Shown here: in pieces, positions 4,167 through 57,611 of the stretch
Position numbering within the stretch: position 1 is the first letter of the stretch
Layout of the letters: every line of letters starts with the position of its first letter
NCBI RefSeq assembly: GCF_003781945.1
Contig: NZ_RJJW01000013.1
Location: 1 to 64,000 of the forward strand
From: Halorubrum sp. CSM-61
GTDB taxonomy: Archaea; Halobacteriota; Halobacteria; Halobacteriales; Haloferacaceae
Reading direction: 5' to 3'
Length of the DNA stretch: 64,000 nt
Translations under genes and position numbers: made by a program
Notes under the pieces: generated by a model
The model's input: only the letters and a program-made list of their open reading frames with translations
What the model was told of the DNA's origin: nothing
Database searches by the model: none

Positions 4167-6251
4167 TCACGCCAGCCAGTCGTCGGGCTTCGTGTCGTAG
4201 TCGATCTCGTCGGCCGCGATCCGCTCGCGGATCTCCGGGTCGAGGTCGTGTTCGGTCACCTCGCCGCCGTCGTACTGGAAGCGAACGCCGACCTCCTCGC
4301 CCTCCGGCTCGGTGCCCCGCCGCTTGGCGCGTCGGAGCGCCTCCTCGGAGTACTCGACGCGGACCGTCGCGAGGTTCACCGGACGGCCCCACAGCTCGAA
4401 GACGCGCTTCAGGGTCTCCTTCGCCGCCGCCTCGTCGAGGGCGACCCCGTTATACCGGTGGCCCAAGAGGAGCTCCCCCCGGTTCCGGAAGTTGCCGTCG
4501 AGCACGACGACCGTCGGCTTCCCGAAGTTCGTGAACCGCAACAGGAGCTTCTTCCGCACGTCGTCGGCGTCGACGCTGGCGACGCGGTGCTGTTCGGTCG
4601 CCCGGCTGTACTCGTAGGTGAAGTAGTTCCCCTCGCGCACGAACTCGTCGGTGAGGAACGCGTCGATGAACGTCACGTCGTTGTGGCTCTCGCGGACCTC
4701 GAGCATTCGGTCCCAGCCGGCCGCACGATTGACGTCGTCGAGCGCCTCCTCGACGGTCGCGTACCGGTCGACGTCGAACATGTACCGCGCCCGCTCGGCC
4801 AGCGTCTCCCGCGAGACGTTCCGGAGGGCGCTCCGGTGTTCCGGCCGCGACAGGACGTAGTGGCGCTCGGCGAGCCCCTCGCGCGTGAGCAGCTTCCACG
4901 GGTAGCGCTCGACGTCCGGGCCGGCGTCGGGAGCGGTCTCGCCGTCGCCGTCGGTCGCCGGCCGCTCCCCGTCCCGCGCGGAGAGCGCCCGATCGACCGC
5001 CTCGGCGTCGACGCGCGGGTCGCCGTCGGCGGCGAGGTCGACGAGCTCGTCCAGCGTCGCCGGCCCCGCCCCGGCGATCGCCGGATGGGGCTCGAGCGCG
5101 TTGGCGACCTCGTCGAGGTCGATTTCGGAGTGGAAGTTCTCGGGCGTCACCCCCTCGACGCGGAGCAGCCTGTCGATCACGTCGCGCCGGGCGGCCCGCA
5201 GCTCGACGTGGGTCCACAGCTCGAACCCGAGCTTGTAGGGGTTAAGTCCGGGCGACCCGAGCACGCGGGACATGTGGTCCGCGTACGTGAGGAACTCGTC
5301 GGGGCCGGCGAACCCCTCGCCGCCCATCATAACAGATTCCCAATATGTTGCCCATCCCTCATTGAGCACCTTCGTCTGCTTCTGTCCCGCGAAGTAGTAC
5401 GCCTCCTCGCGGAGCGCGTCGATGACGGTCGTCTCCCACGGCTCGCGGTCGACCGCCTTCCCGCTGTCGGGGTCGTACCGCTTCCCGTGGTCGCGGAGGA
5501 ACGCGAGCACGTCCGGGCGCGGCTCCTCCGGCTCGACGCCCTCCCCTCTGGCCTCGAGCCACTCGTCGTCGAACACGTCGCGGCGCACCTCCTCGGTGAG
5601 GTCCAGATCCGCGATCCGGTCTTCGATCGCGGCGAGCGCGTCGCCGTCGGCGTCGCTCACGTCCTCGGCGATCCCCGGCCCCTCGACCGACCGGGCCGCG
5701 TCGACGGGGCTGTGCTGGTCGATCGTGTCCTCTAACGCGCTCACGGCGTCGATCAGGCGTTCGACCACGTCTCGGTCGACCCCCGAGCGGTCGGCGATCG
5801 CGGCGATCCGGTCGGCGTTGCGCTCCAGTCGCGCCGCCGCGTTCGGTCCCCCCTCGCCGCGGTCGGCGTACAGCCCGAACCACCGGTTGTTCGCGAAGAA
5901 GTCGGCGTGCGCCTCGACGTGGGTGATCACGGCCTTCTGGTCGGCGGGCGCGTTCGACTCCTGGAGGAACGCGTGGCTCGGGTCGTCGTTGTTGACGATC
6001 TCGAACGCCTTCCCGAGGCCGTGGCGGTCCTTCTTCCGCTGCCGCTCGTAGTTCATCCCCCAGCGCCAGTGGGGGTACCGCCGCTGGAAGCCGCCGTACG
6101 CGATCAGCTCGTTCATCTCGTCGTGGTCGACGACCCAGTACCGCACCGGGTACGGCTCCAGCCCGAGCCGTTCGGCGAGGTCGCGGGCCTCCGTCGCGGG
6201 CTCGTCGAGCGACGCCGCCTCGCGTTTCGCCTCGACGCGCTCGTCTCTCAT
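4167..6251 (-). CDS. spoVR: SpoVR family protein
   Basis: The 694-residue protein belongs to the SpoVR/YcgB family, typically encoded with PrkA kinase and YeaH. Family-like stretches include [66 protein letters not shown] and [11 protein letters not shown]. Its ATG overlaps the TGA of the DUF444 gene (ATGA), making it the last gene of the prkA-prkA-yeaH-spoVR operon. The biochemical activity of SpoVR is not known. The segment around residues 330-450 is acidic and low-complexity, longer than I recall in bacterial members. Confidence 0.95.
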
Positions 6252-7624
6252 CGGCGCTCACCCCCGTCGGTCCGCTCGCGCGCCGCCTCGCCGGCGGTCG
6301 CGCCGCCGCCCTCGGCCTCGGTGCTGAGGATCTCGTAGATGGCGTCGGTCACGTCGTCGGGCTCCGACACCCGCGCGACGGCGACGTCGTCGGCGTCGCC
6401 GAGCGCGTCCTCGACCTCGTCGGCGTGGCGCGCGTTCGCCGCGGCGCCGCCCGGCTGGGTCTCCACGTACGCGTGGAGGTTGGCGTCGATCGACTCCATC
6501 AGCGGGATCACCGATTCGGTCGTGTCCCTGCCGGCGTTCTCGGAGTCGCCGGCCGCGAACACGTAGCGGTTCCACTCGTCGTAGGGGTACGCTTCGAGGA
6601 TCTCCGCGACCAGCTCGTAGGCGCTGGAGATCTTCGTCCCCCCGCCCGACTGGATCCCGAAGAACTCCTCGCGGTCGACCTCCCACGCCTCAGCGTCGTG
6701 GACGACGTACCGGAACTCCGCGGCGTCGTACTTCCCGGTCAGGTACCAGTCCATCGGGGTGAACACGCGCTCGACAAGCTCGCGTTTCGTCTCGCGCATC
6801 GAGCCGGAGGCGTCTCGGACGTTGACGACGACGACGTTGCGCTCGCGCTTCTCGATCACCTCCGGGTGGCGGAACCGCTCGTCCTCCCGGCGGAAGGGGA
6901 CGCTGTCGAGCCCCTCCCGCCGGATCCGGTGCGTGGCGGGCTCGCGGTCGACCTCCTCGTCGAGTTCGTCGAAGCTCTCCCACCGATCCAGCGCCTCGAC
7001 GGGCCCGCCGTGCTCGTCGACTGCGGTGGCGGCCGCGTCGGCGATCCACGCCCGCGAGACGGGAATCCCCTGATCACGCGCCCACGCGAAGGCGTCGTCC
7101 ACGTCGGCGCCGGCGACGCGGAGTCCCTCCCGGACGTACGCCTCGTCGAAGTCGGTCGCGAGGTGGCGCTTCAGCCCGCGCTTGAAGAACTCGTCCACGT
7201 CGAGGGTGCCGCGCGGGCCGGAGCGGGCGGTGTCGGTGAAGTCGCCCTCCGTCTCCTCGACGACCCGCTTCCCCTTCGGTTCGAGGTCGAGCCCGAGCTC
7301 CTCGTCGAGCTCGCGCGCGAACTCCTCGGGGTCCATCTCGTAGTACTCGTGCTTGCCGCCCTCCTCGCCGGGGTCGCCCTCCTCGTCGCCGGGCTCGGGT
7401 TCGACCGGCTGGCCGGGCTGCGACTGCCCGCCCTGTCCCTGCCCGACGCCGCCGGCCTCCCGCCGGTCGTACTCGAACTCGGGGAGGTCGACGATCTTGA
7501 CGGGGATCCGGACCCGGTCGGGGCCGGAGCCGCCCAGGTCGCCGTGGCTGATGAACTCCGAGAGGTCCTCGCGGCGCTCCTCGCCCACCTCGCGGAAGCG
7601 CTCGCGGTCCTCGGTCAGTCCCAC
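6248..7624 (-). CDS. yeaH: DUF444 (YeaH/YhbH) VWA-like protein
   Basis: The 458-residue partner of PrkA and SpoVR. It carries a VWA-type domain with a MIDAS-like DASGS motif (about residues 271-275) in [14 protein letters not shown], followed by [23 protein letters not shown] and [14 protein letters not shown], both typical of DUF444. The N-terminal third has a Gly/Gln/Pro-rich linker. The start is GTG at 7624, overlapping the end of the upstream prkA-like gene; the long open frame further upstream is a shadow of that gene. The stop overlaps the spoVR start by 4 nt. Confidence 0.93.
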
Positions 7625-50108: not shown

Positions 50109-51473
50109 CTAGCTGCGGTCGTCGATCACGGTCGCCGTCTCCCGGTACCGCTCGTCGTGGCGGTGACAGTAGCTCAGGCGGCCGCTGTCGCTCACCTCGT
50201 AGTACTCGGGTTCGACGGGCTCGTCGCCGCCGTCCGGGTCGACGCCGTCACAGACGCTCCCGAACTCGGCGTTGAGCCGGTCGAGCGCCTCCCGCTCCTC
50301 GTGGTCGCCCGCGGCGTCGGTGATCTCGGAGAGGACGCGATCGACCTCGTCCGGCACCGCGAGGTCGCCGAACAGCTCGTCGTACGTCTCGTCGATCGTG
50401 GCGAACCGGGTCTCCAGACCGAACCGCTCGCGGACGCGCTCCCGGATCGACCGGTCGGCGCGCATGCGCTCGCGGATGATCTCGCGGAGCCCGTTGATCC
50501 CCTCCCAGACCTCGTCGTCGAGGTTCTCGTGCTCGTCGGGGCGGATGCGGACCGGACAGCGCGTGCTGAACGGACAGCCCGTCGGCGGGTACCGCGGGTT
50601 CGGCGGCGTCCCGTGGAGCGTGATCCGGTCGCGGCTCGCGGTGGGGTCCGGCTTCGGGATCGCCGAGAGGAGCGCGTGGGTGTACGGGTTCGCGGGGTCG
50701 GTGAACAGCTCCTCGGTCGGACCGATCTCCATGATGTTGCCGAGGTACATCACCGCGACCCGGTCGCAGATGTGCCGGACGACGGAGAGGTCGTGCGCGA
50801 TGAACAGGTACGTGAGATCGAACTCCTCCTGGAGGTCCTCCAGGAGGTTGATGATCTCGGCCTGCACCGAGACGTCGAGCGCGCTCACCGGCTCGTCGAG
50901 CACGATGAACTCGGGGTTCAACGCGAGCGTCCGCGCGATGCCGATCCGCTGGCGCTGCCCGCCCGAGAACTGGTGCGGGTACCGGTAGTAGTGCTCGGGC
51001 GAGAGCCCGACCTCGTCCAGCAGGGACTTGACGCGCTCCCGGCGGTCGGCGGGCGTCTTCCAGTCGTGGACGTCGAGCGGCTCTCGGACGATCTCGCCGA
51101 TCGTCATCCGGTCGTTCAGGCTGGAGTCCGGGTCCTGAAACACCATCTGTGCGTTCCGACGCCACTCGTAGAGCTGGTCGCCGCGCAGCGACGTGATGTC
51201 GGTGCCGTCGAACAGCACCTCGCCGTCGGTCGCCTCTTCGAGCCGGATGAGCGTCCGACCGAGGGTGGTCTTCCCGCAGCCGGACTCTCCGACGAGCCCG
51301 AGGGTCTCTCCCCGCCGGATGTCGAAGCTGACGCCGTCGACCGCCTTGACCGGACGGTCGTCCAACAGGCCGCCCCCCTCGTAGTACGTCTTCAGGTCCC
51401 GCACCTTCACCATCGTGTCGGGCGCGGGTCTCCCCTCGTCGCCCGGCGTCGTCGGAGCTGTGTGTCGACTCAT
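50109..51473 (-). CDS. dppF: Peptide-type ABC transporter ATP-binding protein (DppF/OppF)
   Basis: The 454-residue ATPase has Walker [11 protein letters not shown]-loop [15 protein letters not shown], signature [17 protein letters not shown], Walker [17 protein letters not shown] and H-loop [15 protein letters not shown]. The C-terminal oligopeptide-transporter extension ([20 protein letters not shown]) is present, but the protein carries about 100 further residues, longer than the usual 330. ATG overlaps the dppD stop by 4 nt. Confidence 0.93.
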
Positions 51474-52831
51474 TCTCGATCACCTCGTCGGTTCCGCTCC
51501 CGATGACGCGCGACGGCCTCCTCCGTCGGGACGCCTTCGGGGTACAGCAGGCACGCGGCCGTGTGGTCGTCCGTCTCCTCGTCGACCGGCGTCGGGACCG
51601 GATGGACCGAATCGCACTCGTCGAACGCCTTCGGGCACCGAGGCGCGAACCGACAGTACGTCGCCGGCTCGTTCGGCGTCGGAACGCTGCCGTCGATCGT
51701 CGACAGCCGCTCGCCGAGCTGCCCGCCCGGGATCGAGCTGAGGAGCCCGTTCGTGTACGGGTGTTTCGGGTCCGCGAACAGCGGTTCCACGTCGGCGGAC
51801 TCGACTATCTCGCCGGCGTACATCACGTTGACCCGGTCGGAGACGTCGGCGATCACGCCCATGTCGTGGGTGATGAACATCACCGCCACGTCCCGCGACT
51901 CCTGGATCTCCGAGAGCAGGTCCAGGATCTGGGCCTGTATCGTCACGTCGAGCGCGGTGGTCGGCTCGTCGCAGATCAGCATGTCGGGCTCGCACGCCAG
52001 CGCCATCGCGATGACGGCGCGCTGGCGCATCCCGCCCGAGAACTGGTGCGGGTACTCGTTGACCCGCCGGCGGGCGTCCGGGATCCCGACCGCTTCGAGC
52101 AGCTCCGCGGCCTCCTGCGTGGCCGCCTTCCCGGAGAGCCCCTGGTGGAGCTCCAGCGCCTCCTCGATCTGGTTGCCGACCGTGTAGACGGGGTTGAGGC
52201 TGGTCAGCGGGTCCTGGAACACCATCGCGATCCGGCCGCCGCGCATCTTGCGCTGGGCCTCGCCGGAGAGGCGGGTGATCTCGACGAACCCGTCGCGGAT
52301 CGACTCCGGCGAGCCGGCGTCGCCGTCGAGGACGAAGACGCACTCGTCGCCGTCCGTGATCCCGACCTCGTCGGTGTACCCGGCCGCGGCCACGTCGACC
52401 ACCGGCACGTCGCCGGGCTCCGCGTAGCCGAACTCCTCGGGGGTCGCGTCGGTCTCACCGAACACCTCGGCGGGGTCGTACCTCGCGTCGAGCGCCTCGA
52501 CCGCGACCGTCCGCTTCGAGAACGTGCGGGCGAACTCGCGGACCGCGTCGAGGTCGCGGTAGCGGACGCTGCTCCCCCGGAGCACGCGCCCGGGCGACTC
52601 GATCAGCCCCATCAGCGAGCGGGCCGTGACGCTCTTTCCGCTCCCGCTCTCGCCGACGATGCCGACCGTCTGGCCGGAGTCGATCGAAAAGTCGATCCCG
52701 TCGACGGCGCGGATCGTCTCCTTGTCGGTGAAGAAGGCGGTCTGGAGGTTCCGGACGTCGATGAGCGGGTCGTCGTCCCGAGCCCCGTCGGCCGTCCCGG
52801 TCGCGGACGCGGACCGCTCCTCGGCGGCCAT
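51470..52831 (-). CDS. dppD: Peptide-type ABC transporter ATP-binding protein (DppD/OppD) with an inserted domain
   Basis: The 453-residue ATPase has Walker A GESGSGKS (residues 60-67), Q-loop [17 protein letters not shown], signature [17 protein letters not shown], Walker [17 protein letters not shown] and H-loop [15 protein letters not shown]. Between the first beta strands and the Q-loop there is an extra segment of about 90 residues (roughly 95-185, including [29 protein letters not shown]), where typical DppD has about 20. ATG 52831 overlaps the dppC stop (TGATG). Confidence 0.92.
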
Positions 52832-54573
52832 CACGCACCACCTCCGGTGGCGGCGGCCTCGCTCTCGTCCACGTCGGCCTCCGGATCGATCGCGTCGCGG
52901 ATCGCGTCACCGAGCGCGTTGAACGCGATGACCACTAAGACGATCGCGATGCCGGGAATGGTCGCGACGTGCCAAGAGTCGGTGGCGACGTACGACTGCC
53001 CGCCGTCGATGAGCCGCCCCCACTCGGGGGTCGGCGGGTTGATTCCCAGTCCGAGGAAGGTCAGCGCCGCGGTCGAGATGATCACGGCGCCGATCAGAAG
53101 CGATCCGTAGATCAGGATGTAGCCGGCGATGTAGGGTGCCATGTGTTTTCGCATCGTCTGTAAGGGCGTCTGTCCGTAGCTCTTCGCGGCGTCGACCCAC
53201 TCCTGTTCGGACACCTGTAACGAGGGGCCGCGGATGGAACGCCACATCCCCGGCCAGTAGGCGAACGCGAAGATGAGCGCCAACAGGAGTCCGCCGTCGA
53301 GGGGTTGCGCGATCGGGTGGTTCGCCTCTTGGAAGACGACCGAGACGAGCATGATGAGGAGCAGCGCCGGGACGGCCTGAATGGTGTCGCTCGCCATCAC
53401 CGTCACGATGTCGGTGACTCCCTTGTAGTACGAGGAGAGGAGCGAGAGGACGACCGCGATGAGCGCGCCGAGCCCGATCGCCGTCAACCCGATGACGAGC
53501 GAGGTCCGGGCGCCGTACGAGAGATGCGTCATCATGTCCTGGCCTCGGTTCGTCGTCCCCAGCGGTGCCCACCTGTCGTAGTCGTCGTAGCTCATCGGTC
53601 CGATCGTGTTCTGGCCGTCGGAGCGGCTCTGGAGGTTCGCGAACACGTGCGTGGTCGAGGTGACCTCGCCGTCCTCGGAGAGGTACTGGAACTCGTGGGA
53701 GTTCGGCTCGTAGATGTTGTGCTGCGCCTCGACCGGACTCACCGCCGGCGCCCACAGCGCCATCACGACGAACAGGAAGACGATCGCGAAGCCGAACAGC
53801 CCCCAGTAGTTGTTCCGGAACCGGCGGACCGTGTCGTCTCGCGGCGTCCAGTCCGCGAGCCGGTAGTGGGTCCGGTAGACGTCGAAGCCCCGCCACAGCC
53901 AGACGAGGGCCGTCGTCGCGTACGCGAACACGAGCCCCGTCCGGATCGCCCACGCGGTCGCGGGCGAGAGGCCGAGGAACGTCCCCTCCCAGCCCCCCTC
54001 GGGCAGCCGGTGTCCCGTGTTCGGGATCAGATCGCGGCTGGTGATCGAGGGGAGGGAGGCGGCGAGCGCGTCGACGCCGCCCGTGATCGCGCCGATGAGC
54101 GCGGAGAACGCGCCGCCGACCGGCGTGTACGCGACGAGTCCGGCTGCGGCGACGAGGACGAACGTCAGCTCGGCGCGCTTCGCCCAGCGGCGGCCCCGTC
54201 GCGAGAGGTCGAGTCCGAGGACGTCGACGGCGCCGTCGGGCACGCTTCCGGCGACGGGAACCGTGACCGCGAAGGCCATCAGGACGGCCGTAACCGCGGT
54301 CGCGACGAACCCGGCCGCGGAGCCGAGCGTCCCCGCCACGTTGTCGCCCACGGAGGTCGGAACGCTCGCGAGGAGCTCGACGGTGAATCCGACGATCCCG
54401 AACGCCTGCCCGACGCCGGCGAACACGCGACCGATCTCGAGCAAGAGCAGGAACGCGAGCCCGGCGAGCCACGCCATCGCCGGCCGCGGGTTCTCCCGGA
54501 CGCGGTCTCGGAACAGCTTGTCGTCGTCCGGTTCCTCGAGTCCGTCCGTGGAATCGCTCTGTGTCGTACTCAT
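52831..54573 (-). CDS. dppC: Peptide-type ABC transporter permease (DppC)
   Basis: The 580-residue permease has a typical BPD_transp_1 C-terminal half (about residues 340-560: WAPLGTTNRGQDMMTHLSYGARTSLVIGLTAIGLG; EWVDAAKSYGQTPLQTMRKHMAPYIAGYILIYGSLLIGAVIISTAALTFLGLGINPP). The family EAA-like loop is in EWVDAAKSYG. The N-terminal half adds about 250 residues with several membrane helices, making it about twice the usual 300 residues, a known haloarchaeal style. It overlaps dppD and follows dppB by 4-nt overlap. Confidence 0.92.
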   Translation of the reverse strand: MSTTQSDSTDGLEEPDDDKLFRDRVRENPRPAMAWLAGLAFLLLLEIGRVFAGVGQAFGIVGFTVELLASVPTSVGDNVAGTLGSAAGFVATAVTAVLMAFAVTVPVAGSVPDGAVDVLGLDLSRRGRRWAKRAELTFVLVAAAGLVAYTPVGGAFSALIGAITGGVDALAASLPSITSRDLIPNTGHRLPEGGWEGTFLGLSPATAWAIRTGLVFAYATTALVWLWRGFDVYRTHYRLADWTPRDDTVRRFRNNYWGLFGFAIVFLFVVMALWAPAVSPVEAQHNIYEPNSHEFQYLSEDGEVTSTTHVFANLQSRSDGQNTIGPMSYDDYDRWAPLGTTNRGQDMMTHLSYGARTSLVIGLTAIGLGALIAVVLSLLSSYYKGVTDIVTVMASDTIQAVPALLLIMLVSVVFQEANHPIAQPLDGGLLLALIFAFAYWPGMWRSIRGPSLQVSEQEWVDAAKSYGQTPLQTMRKHMAPYIAGYILIYGSLLIGAVIISTAALTFLGLGINPPTPEWGRLIDGGQSYVATDSWHVATIPGIAIVLVVIAFNALGDAIRDAIDPEADVDESEAAATGGGA

Positions 54574-55640
54574 TGTTCGTACCCCACCCGGGGATCGATG
54601 ACGGTGTACAGGAAGTCCTGGAGGATGTTGAGTCCCAAGATGATCAGCGTGAAGAGGAACAGCAGGGCCCCGGCCATCGGCAGGTCACCCTGCGTGAGCG
54701 CCTGGAAGAAGATCCGCCCGAGCCCGTTGATGTTGAAGATCTGTTCGACGATCACGGAGCCGCCGATGAGGAGGAACGCCTCGCTCGTGATGACCGGCAA
54801 CAGCGGGATCAGGGCGTTCCGGAAGATGTGTTTCCAGACGATCACCCGGTCGGTGACCCCCTTCGCCTTCGCGGTCTCGACGAACTTCGAGTTGACCGTC
54901 TCCAGCATCGCGGTCCGTCCGATGCGCAGCTCCGCCGCCATCGACGCCGACCCGAGAATGATCGCCGGCGGGAGGATGAGCTTGACGTCGATCGCCAGCG
55001 CCGTCCAGTCGCTGACGTACGGCACCGGGAACATGAGGATATCGGTGGTCGAGAACCACTCGAGGTTCGGTGTCCCGGTGATGCTGATGTTCCGAGACGC
55101 GAAGTCCGGACCGAACGCGTACCAGTCGAACCCGAAGGGTCCGCCGCCGTTCCGGGTTCGCCGGAGCACCGCCAGCGCGATCACGCACAGCCAGAAGTTC
55201 GGCAGGGCCTGCCAGACGATGCCGCCGAGGGAGGCCGTGTAGTCGCCGAGCGTGTTGGGGTTGAGCCCGGCGTAGAAGCCGAGGGGGATCCCGATGAAAA
55301 GCGGCAGCAGGATCGCCCAGAAGCCGAGCCAGAGCGTCGCCGGCGCGGCGTTCACGGCGATGTCGAGGATGTCTCGCTCGGCCTGGACCACCCACGACTG
55401 GCCGAAGTTGAAGGTGATGAAGTCGGTGATGAAGTCGACGTACTGTTCCCAGAGGGGATCGTTGAGACCGAGGCGCTCCCGGAGCTGCGCCCTGTCCGCC
55501 GCGCCCGCTTGGGGACCGAGCCGAGCGGCCACCGGATCGATCGGTCCCGCCCGGAGCATGATGAACAGGAACGTCAGCACGGAGAACAACACCGGGACGG
55601 TGAGTAGCAGCCGCTTGACGAAGTACTCCCAGCGGCTCAT
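54570..55640 (-). CDS. dppB: Peptide-type ABC transporter permease (DppB)
   Basis: The 356-residue permease starts MSRWEYFVKRLLLTVPVLFSVLTFLFIMLRAGPIDPVAARLG, typical of DppB. It has six helices and the cytoplasmic loop TVNSKFVETAKAKGVTDRVIVWKHIFRNALIPLLPVITSEAFLLIGGSVIVEQIF. It pairs with DppC to form the membrane channel. Four-nt overlap with dppC. Confidence 0.95.
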   Translation of the reverse strand: MSRWEYFVKRLLLTVPVLFSVLTFLFIMLRAGPIDPVAARLGPQAGAADRAQLRERLGLNDPLWEQYVDFITDFITFNFGQSWVVQAERDILDIAVNAAPATLWLGFWAILLPLFIGIPLGFYAGLNPNTLGDYTASLGGIVWQALPNFWLCVIALAVLRRTRNGGGPFGFDWYAFGPDFASRNISITGTPNLEWFSTTDILMFPVPYVSDWTALAIDVKLILPPAIILGSASMAAELRIGRTAMLETVNSKFVETAKAKGVTDRVIVWKHIFRNALIPLLPVITSEAFLLIGGSVIVEQIFNINGLGRIFFQALTQGDLPMAGALLFLFTLIILGLNILQDFLYTVIDPRVGYEQ

Positions 55641-55745: not shown

Positions 55746-57611
55746 CTACTCGGCCTCTTCGTTGAGTTCGGTCTGCCAGTCGAGGTAGAACCCGTTCGTC
55801 TGAGTGGGCATCGTCGACGTGTCCGTGTTACGCGGTTCGAGCTGGAACATCCCGTACGGAACGGCGGGCCAGCTCCAGATCCACCCGAGGCTGTACATCT
55901 CCAGGTCGCCGTCCTCCCCGCGGCTCTGCAGGACGGAGAACTGCGCCGTCTCCAGCGACAGGTTGACGCCGGTCCCGGAGATCAGGTCGCGGACGAGCTC
56001 GCCGGCCGTCTGGAACACCTCGCTCTCGTAGGTGGTGAGCGTCATGTCGACCGGGTCGTCGGACGAGATGCCGGCCTCTTCGAGGGCCGACTGCGCGCCC
56101 TGCGGGTCGCTCTCGCCGCGGCTGTAGGGGTACTGGTCGAGGAAGTCGTTGTAACCGTCGTTGCCGGTCGGCCAGATCGCCGGGGGGAGGAAGCTGTATG
56201 CCGGCGTGCCGCGGCCGGCGAACACCTCTTGGACGATCTGCTCTTTGTTCATCACGTACGCGATCGCCTGCCGGACCGCGCGCTCCGTGTTCGCGACGTT
56301 GAACGCGAAGTAGAACGTGCTGATCTCGGAGACGCCGACGTAGTTGACCTCTTCGTCCAGCTCGCCCGCCGGACCGTACGTCCCGACCTGGCGGCCGCGG
56401 TCGTCGGCCTCGGCGTTGACGGCGCTCGCCTCGTACGCGAACGTCGGCATCTCGAAGATGTCGGCGTTCTGCTCGAGGGCGTAGGTCCACCGCGCCTGGC
56501 TGTCCTCGATGATCTCCCAGTGGACGGACTCGACGCTCGCGACCTCGCCGTAGTAGTCGTCGTTGCGGAGGACGGTGACGTCCTCGTCGACGTTGAACTC
56601 GCCGAGTTCGAACGGTCCGGTCCCGTTGGCGACCTCGGTCGAGAACTCCTGGTGGGTGACCTCGCCGTCGTACCCCTCGATGTCGCCGACGTACCCCTCG
56701 GGGAGGACCGCGAAGCTGGAGTACGCGATGACGTCGAGCACGTCGGGGTTCGGTCCGACGAGCTGGATCTCGATGGTGTAGTCGTCGACGACTTCGACCG
56801 CCAGCGAGTCGGGGACGACGTTTCCGTCGTCGTCCGTCTCGGCGTCGATGCCGAGTCCGACCGGCTGGTTGAGGGTGAAGCCGGCGCGCTCGGAGAACTC
56901 CGACTCGACGGTGCGGCGCCAGGAGTACTTCACGTCCTGGGCCGTCAGATCGGTGCCGTCGTGGAACTGGACGTCGTCGCGCAGCGTCAGCGTCCACGTG
57001 GTCCCGTCCTCGGAGACCTCGTACTCGTCTAAGAGCTGGTTTTCGATCTCCGGGACCCCGTTGGGGAACGCCGTGAGGTTCTCGTAGATCTGCGTGATGA
57101 CCCGAGAGGACTCCGTGTCCGTCGACATGATCGGGTCGAGTTCGTCGAACGTACTGGCGATGAGGTTGAGCTCGGAGTCGCCCTCGACGGTCGTCGTGTT
57201 GAGCTGCTGCCAGTGGGAACCGAGCGCACCGGTCAGCGGAACGTCGACGTAGTCGTACCAGAACCGCTCCGTGAGGCTGTGATACAGCGGGATGACAGCG
57301 GCGTCGTCGCGGACCGCCTCCTCCATCTCGATGTACGCCTCCTGTCGGAGTTCCTCGTCCTCCGGAAGTGGGTTGTTGACGGCGCGCTCCCAAGCGGTCT
57401 GCGCCTTGTCGGCGTTGGTGGGCCCGGAATCGTCCTCGCCGTCTTCACCGTCCGTCCCGTCTTCGCCGTCGGTGTCGTTACCGTCGCTACCGTCGGAGGG
57501 CTCCTGATCGGAACAGCCGGCGATGCTTACCGCCGCCCCGCCGCCGAGGAGGCCGAGTAGCCGTCGTCGCTTCGTGCTCTCAACTGCCTCTCCATTTGCT
57601 GGATCGGGCAT
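55746..57611 (-). CDS. dppA: Substrate-binding lipoprotein (SBP_bac_5), apparently circularly permuted
   Basis: The 621-residue extracellular binding protein has a Tat-like signal (RRRLLGLLGGGAAVSIAGC) with lipobox Cys33 and an acidic linker (34-65). Residues 66-142 (NADKAQTAWERAVNNP... AVIPLYHSLTERFWYDYVDVP... GSHWQQLNTT) look like the extreme C-terminus of ordinary members. From residue 143 (NLIASTFDELDPIMSTDTES) the normal N-lobe begins. The protein ends at FYLDWQTELNEEAE, where ordinary members would continue into the DKAQTAWE segment. It is therefore a probable natural circular permutation. It is the first gene of the transporter operon. Confidence 0.93.
   Translation of the reverse strand: MPDPANGEAVESTKRRRLLGLLGGGAAVSIAGCSDQEPSDGSDGNDTDGEDGTDGEDGEDDSGPTNADKAQTAWERAVNNPLPEDEELRQEAYIEMEEAVRDDAAVIPLYHSLTERFWYDYVDVPLTGALGSHWQQLNTTTVEGDSELNLIASTFDELDPIMSTDTESSRVITQIYENLTAFPNGVPEIENQLLDEYEVSEDGTTWTLTLRDDVQFHDGTDLTAQDVKYSWRRTVESEFSERAGFTLNQPVGLGIDAETDDDGNVVPDSLAVEVVDDYTIEIQLVGPNPDVLDVIAYSSFAVLPEGYVGDIEGYDGEVTHQEFSTEVANGTGPFELGEFNVDEDVTVLRNDDYYGEVASVESVHWEIIEDSQARWTYALEQNADIFEMPTFAYEASAVNAEADDRGRQVGTYGPAGELDEEVNYVGVSEISTFYFAFNVANTERAVRQAIAYVMNKEQIVQEVFAGRGTPAYSFLPPAIWPTGNDGYNDFLDQYPYSRGESDPQGAQSALEEAGISSDDPVDMTLTTYESEVFQTAGELVRDLISGTGVNLSLETAQFSVLQSRGEDGDLEMYSLGWIWSWPAVPYGMFQLEPRNTDTSTMPTQTNGFYLDWQTELNEEAE

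Follow-up and report, generated by a model that had tools for sequence, protein, structure and literature searches.

The window analysed here (a stretch of 64,000 nucleotides at the start of contig NZ_RJJW01000013.1 of Halorubrum sp. CSM-61) carries a gene whose product would be the substrate-binding lipoprotein of an Opp/Dpp-type ABC importer (Table 1). The protein matches the SBP_bac_5 profile PF00496 (1.2e-66, 225.8 bits against a gathering cut-off of 32.4) and thereby belongs to the SBP_bac_5 family, or cluster C; this match, over residues 188-589, is the only one returned by Pfam. Its signal reads RRR followed by the lipobox IAGC with Cys33 (the signature of an archaeal Tat lipoprotein), and Cys33 is presumably the lipid-modified residue. 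Across 42 proteins of the same architecture (type A, described below), R15, R16, G32 and C33 are invariant. Behind the signal and an acidic tether lies a segment comprising two helices, a long strand that probably belongs to the hinge, and a C-terminal tail. The remaining body covers the canonical chain from its N-terminus onwards, including most of the second lobe.

Since OppB- and OppC-type permeases and two ATPases are encoded 3' of this gene on the same strand (50109-55640), the operon specifies a complete Opp/Dpp-type importer. The next-best family match in the same genome is just 28% identical to the window protein. As for the importer genes themselves, the OppC-type permease carries ~240 extra, hydrophobic-looking residues ahead of OppC_N. 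The two ATPases are of 454 aa each, with ~100 residues apparently inserted after the Walker A region of the OppD/DppD-type enzyme and a long insertion near the C-terminus of the OppF/DppF-type enzyme.

Table 1. Features of the binding-protein gene and its operon in the window
Feature	Positions	Strand	Basis
Circularly permuted SBP_bac_5 lipoprotein, type A, 621 aa	55746..57611	-	ORF, ATG start
Tat-type signal peptide, residues 1-33, lipobox IAGC	57513..57611	-	sequence MPDPANGEAVESTKRRRLLGLLGGGAAVSIAGC
Acidic low-complexity tether, residues 34-65	57417..57512	-	sequence; pLDDT <50 for residues 1-61
Relocated C-terminal segment, residues 66-142	57186..57416	-	61% identity to canonical C-terminus, E 2e-30
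Body, residues 143-621, up to new C-terminus	55749..57185	-	homology; VIA match of 142-618
OppB/DppB-type permease	54570..55640	-	PF00528 1.9e-32, BPD_transp_1_N
OppC/DppC-type permease, 580 aa	52831..54573	-	PF00528 1e-22, OppC_N; synteny
OppD/DppD-type ATPase	51470..52834	-	ABC_tran, oligo_HPY; synteny
Second ATPase, OppF/DppF-type	50109..51473	-	Walker motif and FSGGQRQR signature, read from translation

Swapped order of segment and body

The original prediction held that this protein is a natural circular permutant, in which a segment belonging at the C-terminus of SBP_bac_5 proteins follows the lipobox linker and the chain stops where that segment would normally start. The canonical reference was a protein of genome G141 (locus L085, an 854-aa stop-to-stop frame). 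When segment and body are aligned separately, residues 66-142 match L085 776-852 (E 2e-30, 61% identity over 77 residues) and residues 143-621 match L085 298-778 (54% identity). Both thus have their counterparts in one canonical protein, the segment at its C-terminus and the body in the N-terminal remainder, but in opposite order. The stretches AQTAWERAVNNPLPEDEELRQ, IPLYHSLTERFWYDYVDVP and GSHWQQLNTT, by which the original prediction had marked the segment, all lie within 66-142, directly behind the tether at 34-65. On a profile built from canonical proteins (552 positions), window residues 60-143 correspond to positions 466-551 and residues 148-615 to positions 1-469. The breakpoint falls where it had been placed: canonical proteins read GYYLDWQAADSENVQKAQDAW, whereas the window protein ends in ...FYLDWQTELNEEAE-stop and carries NADKAQTAW at its front. 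Furthermore, the old C-terminus is joined to the old N-terminus nearly seamlessly (LNTTTVE-GDSE-LNLI). Because both parts are homologous to a canonical relative, with one copy of each in swapped order and the C-terminal segment preceding the body instead of coming last, the window protein is filed as a permuted variant of the SBP_bac_5 family.

The permuted order is a stable trait of the close relatives. Family-level genomes were searched twice, once for the whole protein and once for the segment; the segment lay 3' of the body in most, and 5' of it, as in the window protein, in ten close orthologues. These orthologues come from 10 genomes besides the window's own, all of Halorubrum except for one relative, and the order is constant among them, the single-contig genome G146 included; those near relatives that bear names are Halorubrum species. 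Among nine orthologue pairs (eight with measurable synonymous change in the segment), pairwise dN/dS ranges from 0.03 to 0.30 for the segment and from 0.14 to 0.37 for the body. Whether the binding-protein gene is permuted or canonical, the permeases and ATPase in most cases follow it downstream in one and the same arrangement. Purifying selection together with a conserved operon argues for a working binding protein and not a broken gene. A misassembly, frameshift or wrong gene model can practically be dismissed. Several member genomes are drafts or MAGs (the type C protein L082, below, sits on a 5 kb contig), but the same architecture occurs in 11 orthologues from separate assemblies, a single-contig genome among them, and in dozens of more distant type A proteins, with uninterrupted frames under purifying selection.

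Hardly more credible is the reading that the segment is an extra copy, or an unrelated domain, added to an already complete binding protein. Such N-terminal additions to binding proteins are common, and a Pfam match confined to 188-589 would miss one. However, each of the 78 permuted proteins from the haloarchaeal survey, the window protein among them, has a single copy of the segment according to the family profile, and the duplicate at both ends of the homologues, which would have spoken against a permutation, is absent. Moreover, the window protein stops where the canonical segment begins, and the relocated segment has 61% identity to a canonical C-terminus.

The canonical operon of L085 occupies the same chromosomal site as the window operon, with permeases just 60-63% identical. 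Since the neighbouring mptD-like and amidohydrolase genes of G141 match the window's at 90% and 85%, this genome was at first a likely candidate for the immediate canonical precursor of the locus. It was then set aside, its permease B showing only 63% identity when the values among other Halorubrum are 83-96%; this looks like replacement of the whole operon within the genus.

The AlphaFold2 (AF2) model of the window protein, computed from 42 type A sequences, has a mean pLDDT of 80 and a pTM of 0.76, with pLDDT below 50 only in residues 1-61 and two short loops; the canonical control L085 reaches 84 and 0.82. Residues 71-142 are confidently folded (10-residue pLDDT means of at least 83) and contain two helices followed by a long strand, as does the canonical C-terminus. 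After rotation of the window protein in silico, its predicted secondary structure agrees with that of L085 at 95% of 550 aligned positions, and within the segment at 77 of 77. VIA-align matches the window model to PDB chains over 142-618 only; on the chains, the match runs from the N-terminus to about residue 440, leaving the last ~65-70 residues unmatched. Against 1dpe, for instance, the match covers 1-439 of 507 (Z 22.5, 406 aligned), compared with 1-507 (Z 33.4, 474 aligned) for L085; the unmatched chain stretch is the C-terminal stretch that is found at the front of the window protein. Cluster C chains are matched with Z 22-24 over 142-618, the model having long strands at 106-118 and 422-437; no cluster B chain is among the structural matches listed, all of which are of cluster C type. 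In Foldseek, the permuted model reaches only modest TM scores (0.42-0.55, normalised by query length), as expected from a sequential aligner, and these do not constitute independent proof. Taken from these models, the probable fold of the window protein is the usual bilobed one of cluster C binding proteins.

Cut types and independent origins in archaea

Permuted family 5 proteins were surveyed in archaeal genomes only. A class-wide search for junction-spanning matches detected a permuted family protein in at least 72 of 391 Halobacteria genomes, and cut types were assigned by position on the canonical profile. Type A, cut near 470, has 45 members including the window protein, and type B, cut near 346, has 29. 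Type D (cut near 111) is known from two proteins, L140 and L143, and single proteins represent type A' (L144, cut near 456-469) and type C (L082, cut near 453-475), the latter from a more distant subfamily. The canonical protein L232 is 51% and 49% identical to the two blocks of L082, in swapped order. In L082 (1736-3892, reverse strand), ~60 to 70 extra residues stand between the tether and the relocated segment.

Signal, lipobox and tether stand in front in all haloarchaeal permutants apart from L120, which is cut by its contig, and L136, which is a fusion. The latter (4364-7288, forward strand, genome G275) is a 975-aa open frame whose start is not assigned; a protein-kinase-like N-terminal region (PF00069, E 2e-5, below the gathering score) is followed by an RR-containing hydrophobic segment and then by a type A permuted binding protein. 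From its domain order, L136 is possibly a kinase-coupled receptor.

A phylum-wide search added genome G584, which lies outside the order of the window's genome and encodes a permuted family 5 protein; it is taken to represent another class because the class-wide draw returned genomes of the same order only. This protein (L231 / L235) carries a C-terminal PGF-CTERM anchor in place of the N-terminal lipobox. In three more genomes of the same order as G584, permuted lipoproteins are cut in the same way; in this type E, the cut comes immediately behind the helix at whose front edge type B is cut. These permutants (L236, L237 and L238) are accompanied by congeners in canonical order (L240). Compared with L240, L236 and L237 show 86% identity over the first block and 83-85% over the second (DNA ~78-80%). 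The blocks correspond to 39-363 and 363-525 of 527 canonical residues, so that practically no residue is lost at the cut. Judging from these identities, the type E permutation is a recent event and the best material for studying the mechanism. By inspection of the DNA by eye, no left-over second copy was seen downstream of the recent type E permutants.

In a tree of 118 rotated sequences, the permuted types are scattered among canonical proteins, and a careful binding-protein tree of 60 rows requires 7 order changes. A single clade of all permuted forms is rejected (delta lnL 612, AU p 2e-38). Type B is one clade (100/100), and the two type D proteins are separate events. Type A alone is likewise rejected as one clade (p 0.0035), with the canonical proteins L085 and L159 nesting within it; therefore, type A was gained more than once or reverted at least once, and re-permutation of L085 and L159 to the canonical order is indistinguishable from repeated gains of A. 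The tree of the neighbouring permease, a gene that is not permuted, also needs 7 changes and displays the same scatter. Several independent permutations, in four or five cut regions, have thus occurred among archaeal SBP_bac_5 proteins. If the canonical order, which is that of the matched solved structures of family 5, is taken as ancestral, the haloarchaea account for at least six gains (A, A', B, C and D twice).

That one ancient permutation, later re-cut or reverted, lies behind all permuted members is very improbable. Types A, A' and C are cut in nearly the same region, and the nesting of L085 and L159 leaves room for reversion within A. Nevertheless, the cuts differ (about h110, h346 and h453-475), the single permuted clade is rejected, the permease reproduces the scatter, and type E comes from a different class, where a canonical congener still shares 83-86% identity with it.

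Tether position and route of permutation

The cuts can be placed on the canonical protein L085, where that of type D lies at 175-184 (adjoining a loop with pLDDT <50 at 180-185), that of type B at 411-415 (a helix end), that of type E near 435 and that of type A at 537-541 (between two helices). The AF2 model of L085 contains two long strands, 344-359 and 581-593, and cuts A, B and E fall between them. A two-strand hinge helps to define cluster C binding proteins (PMC7312458), and the two modelled strands fit this hinge. If they are indeed the hinge, cuts A, B, C and E would lie in the second lobe and cut D in the first. With cuts A, B and C in the second lobe, the lipid tether would enter there; going by topology, canonical proteins are probably tethered via the first lobe and types A, B and C via the second.

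The order of the parts and its conservation are observed, as are purifying selection, an intact operon and more than one origin; with high confidence, they are explained by a permuted mature domain that would retain the same fold and serve the same importer, tethered at the second lobe and representing one of several independent permutations. The mature domain would have been rotated behind an unchanged Tat signal, lipobox and tether, its old C-terminal tail fused straight onto the old N-terminal strand and new ends opened in the loop between two second-lobe helices. The product would remain an ordinary Venus-flytrap binding protein, with its lipid tether entering not at the first lobe but at the second, between the two presumed hinge strands. 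As to the possible route, the data would fit an in-frame tandem duplication with fusion of the copies and trimming downstream of signal and tether; an in-frame shift of the segment to the same effect would fit as well.

No duplicated intermediate was found, and no remnant second copies lie beside the permuted genes; where a locus gave extra matches, as a few did, they belong to large ORFs of their own, interpreted as paralogues. The long frames of L085 (854 aa) and L232 (1006 aa) were considered as duplicated intermediates and rejected, their extra length being non-homologous upstream frame. At locus L102 (G021:C13), two canonical family members stand ~4 kb apart on the same strand, the arrangement that a duplication route needs. 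A rather unlikely alternative is permutation via a split gene, by fission and re-fusion. All N-anchored permutants have kept signal and tether at their front. A split-gene route would account for this, whereas simple duplication followed by trimming of the ends would not by itself, and the missing tandem intermediate also speaks for it. Yet a split two-gene version was not found either, and the type E blocks join with almost no residues lost.

With regard to function, it is possible, though the proposal is tentative, that recurrent permutation behind a fixed export and anchor module has been adaptive, moving the tether from the first to the second lobe for docking to the importer, independently in haloarchaea and in the second class (the PGF-CTERM protein included). 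The prospects are close to even that the permutation is instead functionally neutral drift, the position of the tether being irrelevant. The same operon surrounds permuted and canonical forms and several cut sites are tolerated, as drift would have it; the location of most cut regions in the second lobe, and the wide and long-lived occurrence of types A and B, are no more than suggestive against it.

Significance and comparison with known systems

Natural circular permutants are usually isolated, ancient pairs. The present family forms a natural permutation series, with canonical relatives ~55% identical within the genus and 83-86% identical in one lineage, making testable both the DNA route by which proteins become circularly permuted and the effect of tether position on delivery to an ABC importer. 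No paper on permuted peptide-binding or haloarchaeal binding proteins was found in a literature search that lay largely outside subscription journals, and recurrent multi-site permutation in cluster C appears to be undescribed. Since annotation by local profiles (Pfam, NCBIfam) passes over permutants, permuted binding proteins may be widely overlooked.

The window protein resembles DppA (1dpe), OppA (1ola), DppE (8azb) and MppA (4toz) in its PF00496 profile and in its modelled fold over 142-618, and it shares the operon type of cluster C peptide-binding proteins. Unlike in these four, its last ~70-80 residues come first and the tether enters elsewhere. A parallel in architecture is TpMglB-2 (Tp0684) of Treponema pallidum, a permuted cluster B binding protein designated 'type Ic / cluster Bc', for which tethering was suggested as a possible cause of the permutation (PMC4990184). 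Both are natural circular permutations of a tethered binding protein of an ABC importer. The permutation claimed in the original prediction is real; its description as unusual has to be amended, in view of this published case and of the recurrence within the family. TpMglB-2 differs in having a cluster B sugar-binding fold and not that of family 5, and in presenting one architecture, as against four or five cut regions in archaeal family 5. The direction of the move also differs: in TpMglB-2 the initial strands have gone to the C-terminus, and in the window protein the C-terminal part has come to the front.

Among other proteins, DNA methyltransferases have been permuted repeatedly and with documented intermediates, of which no counterpart was seen for the archaeal binding proteins. 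Saposin/swaposin and the DNA methyltransferases are natural circular permutants in which the fold is kept (reviewed in PMC3320104). In contrast to both, the archaeal binding proteins keep the export signal and tether in front while the domain behind them rotates.
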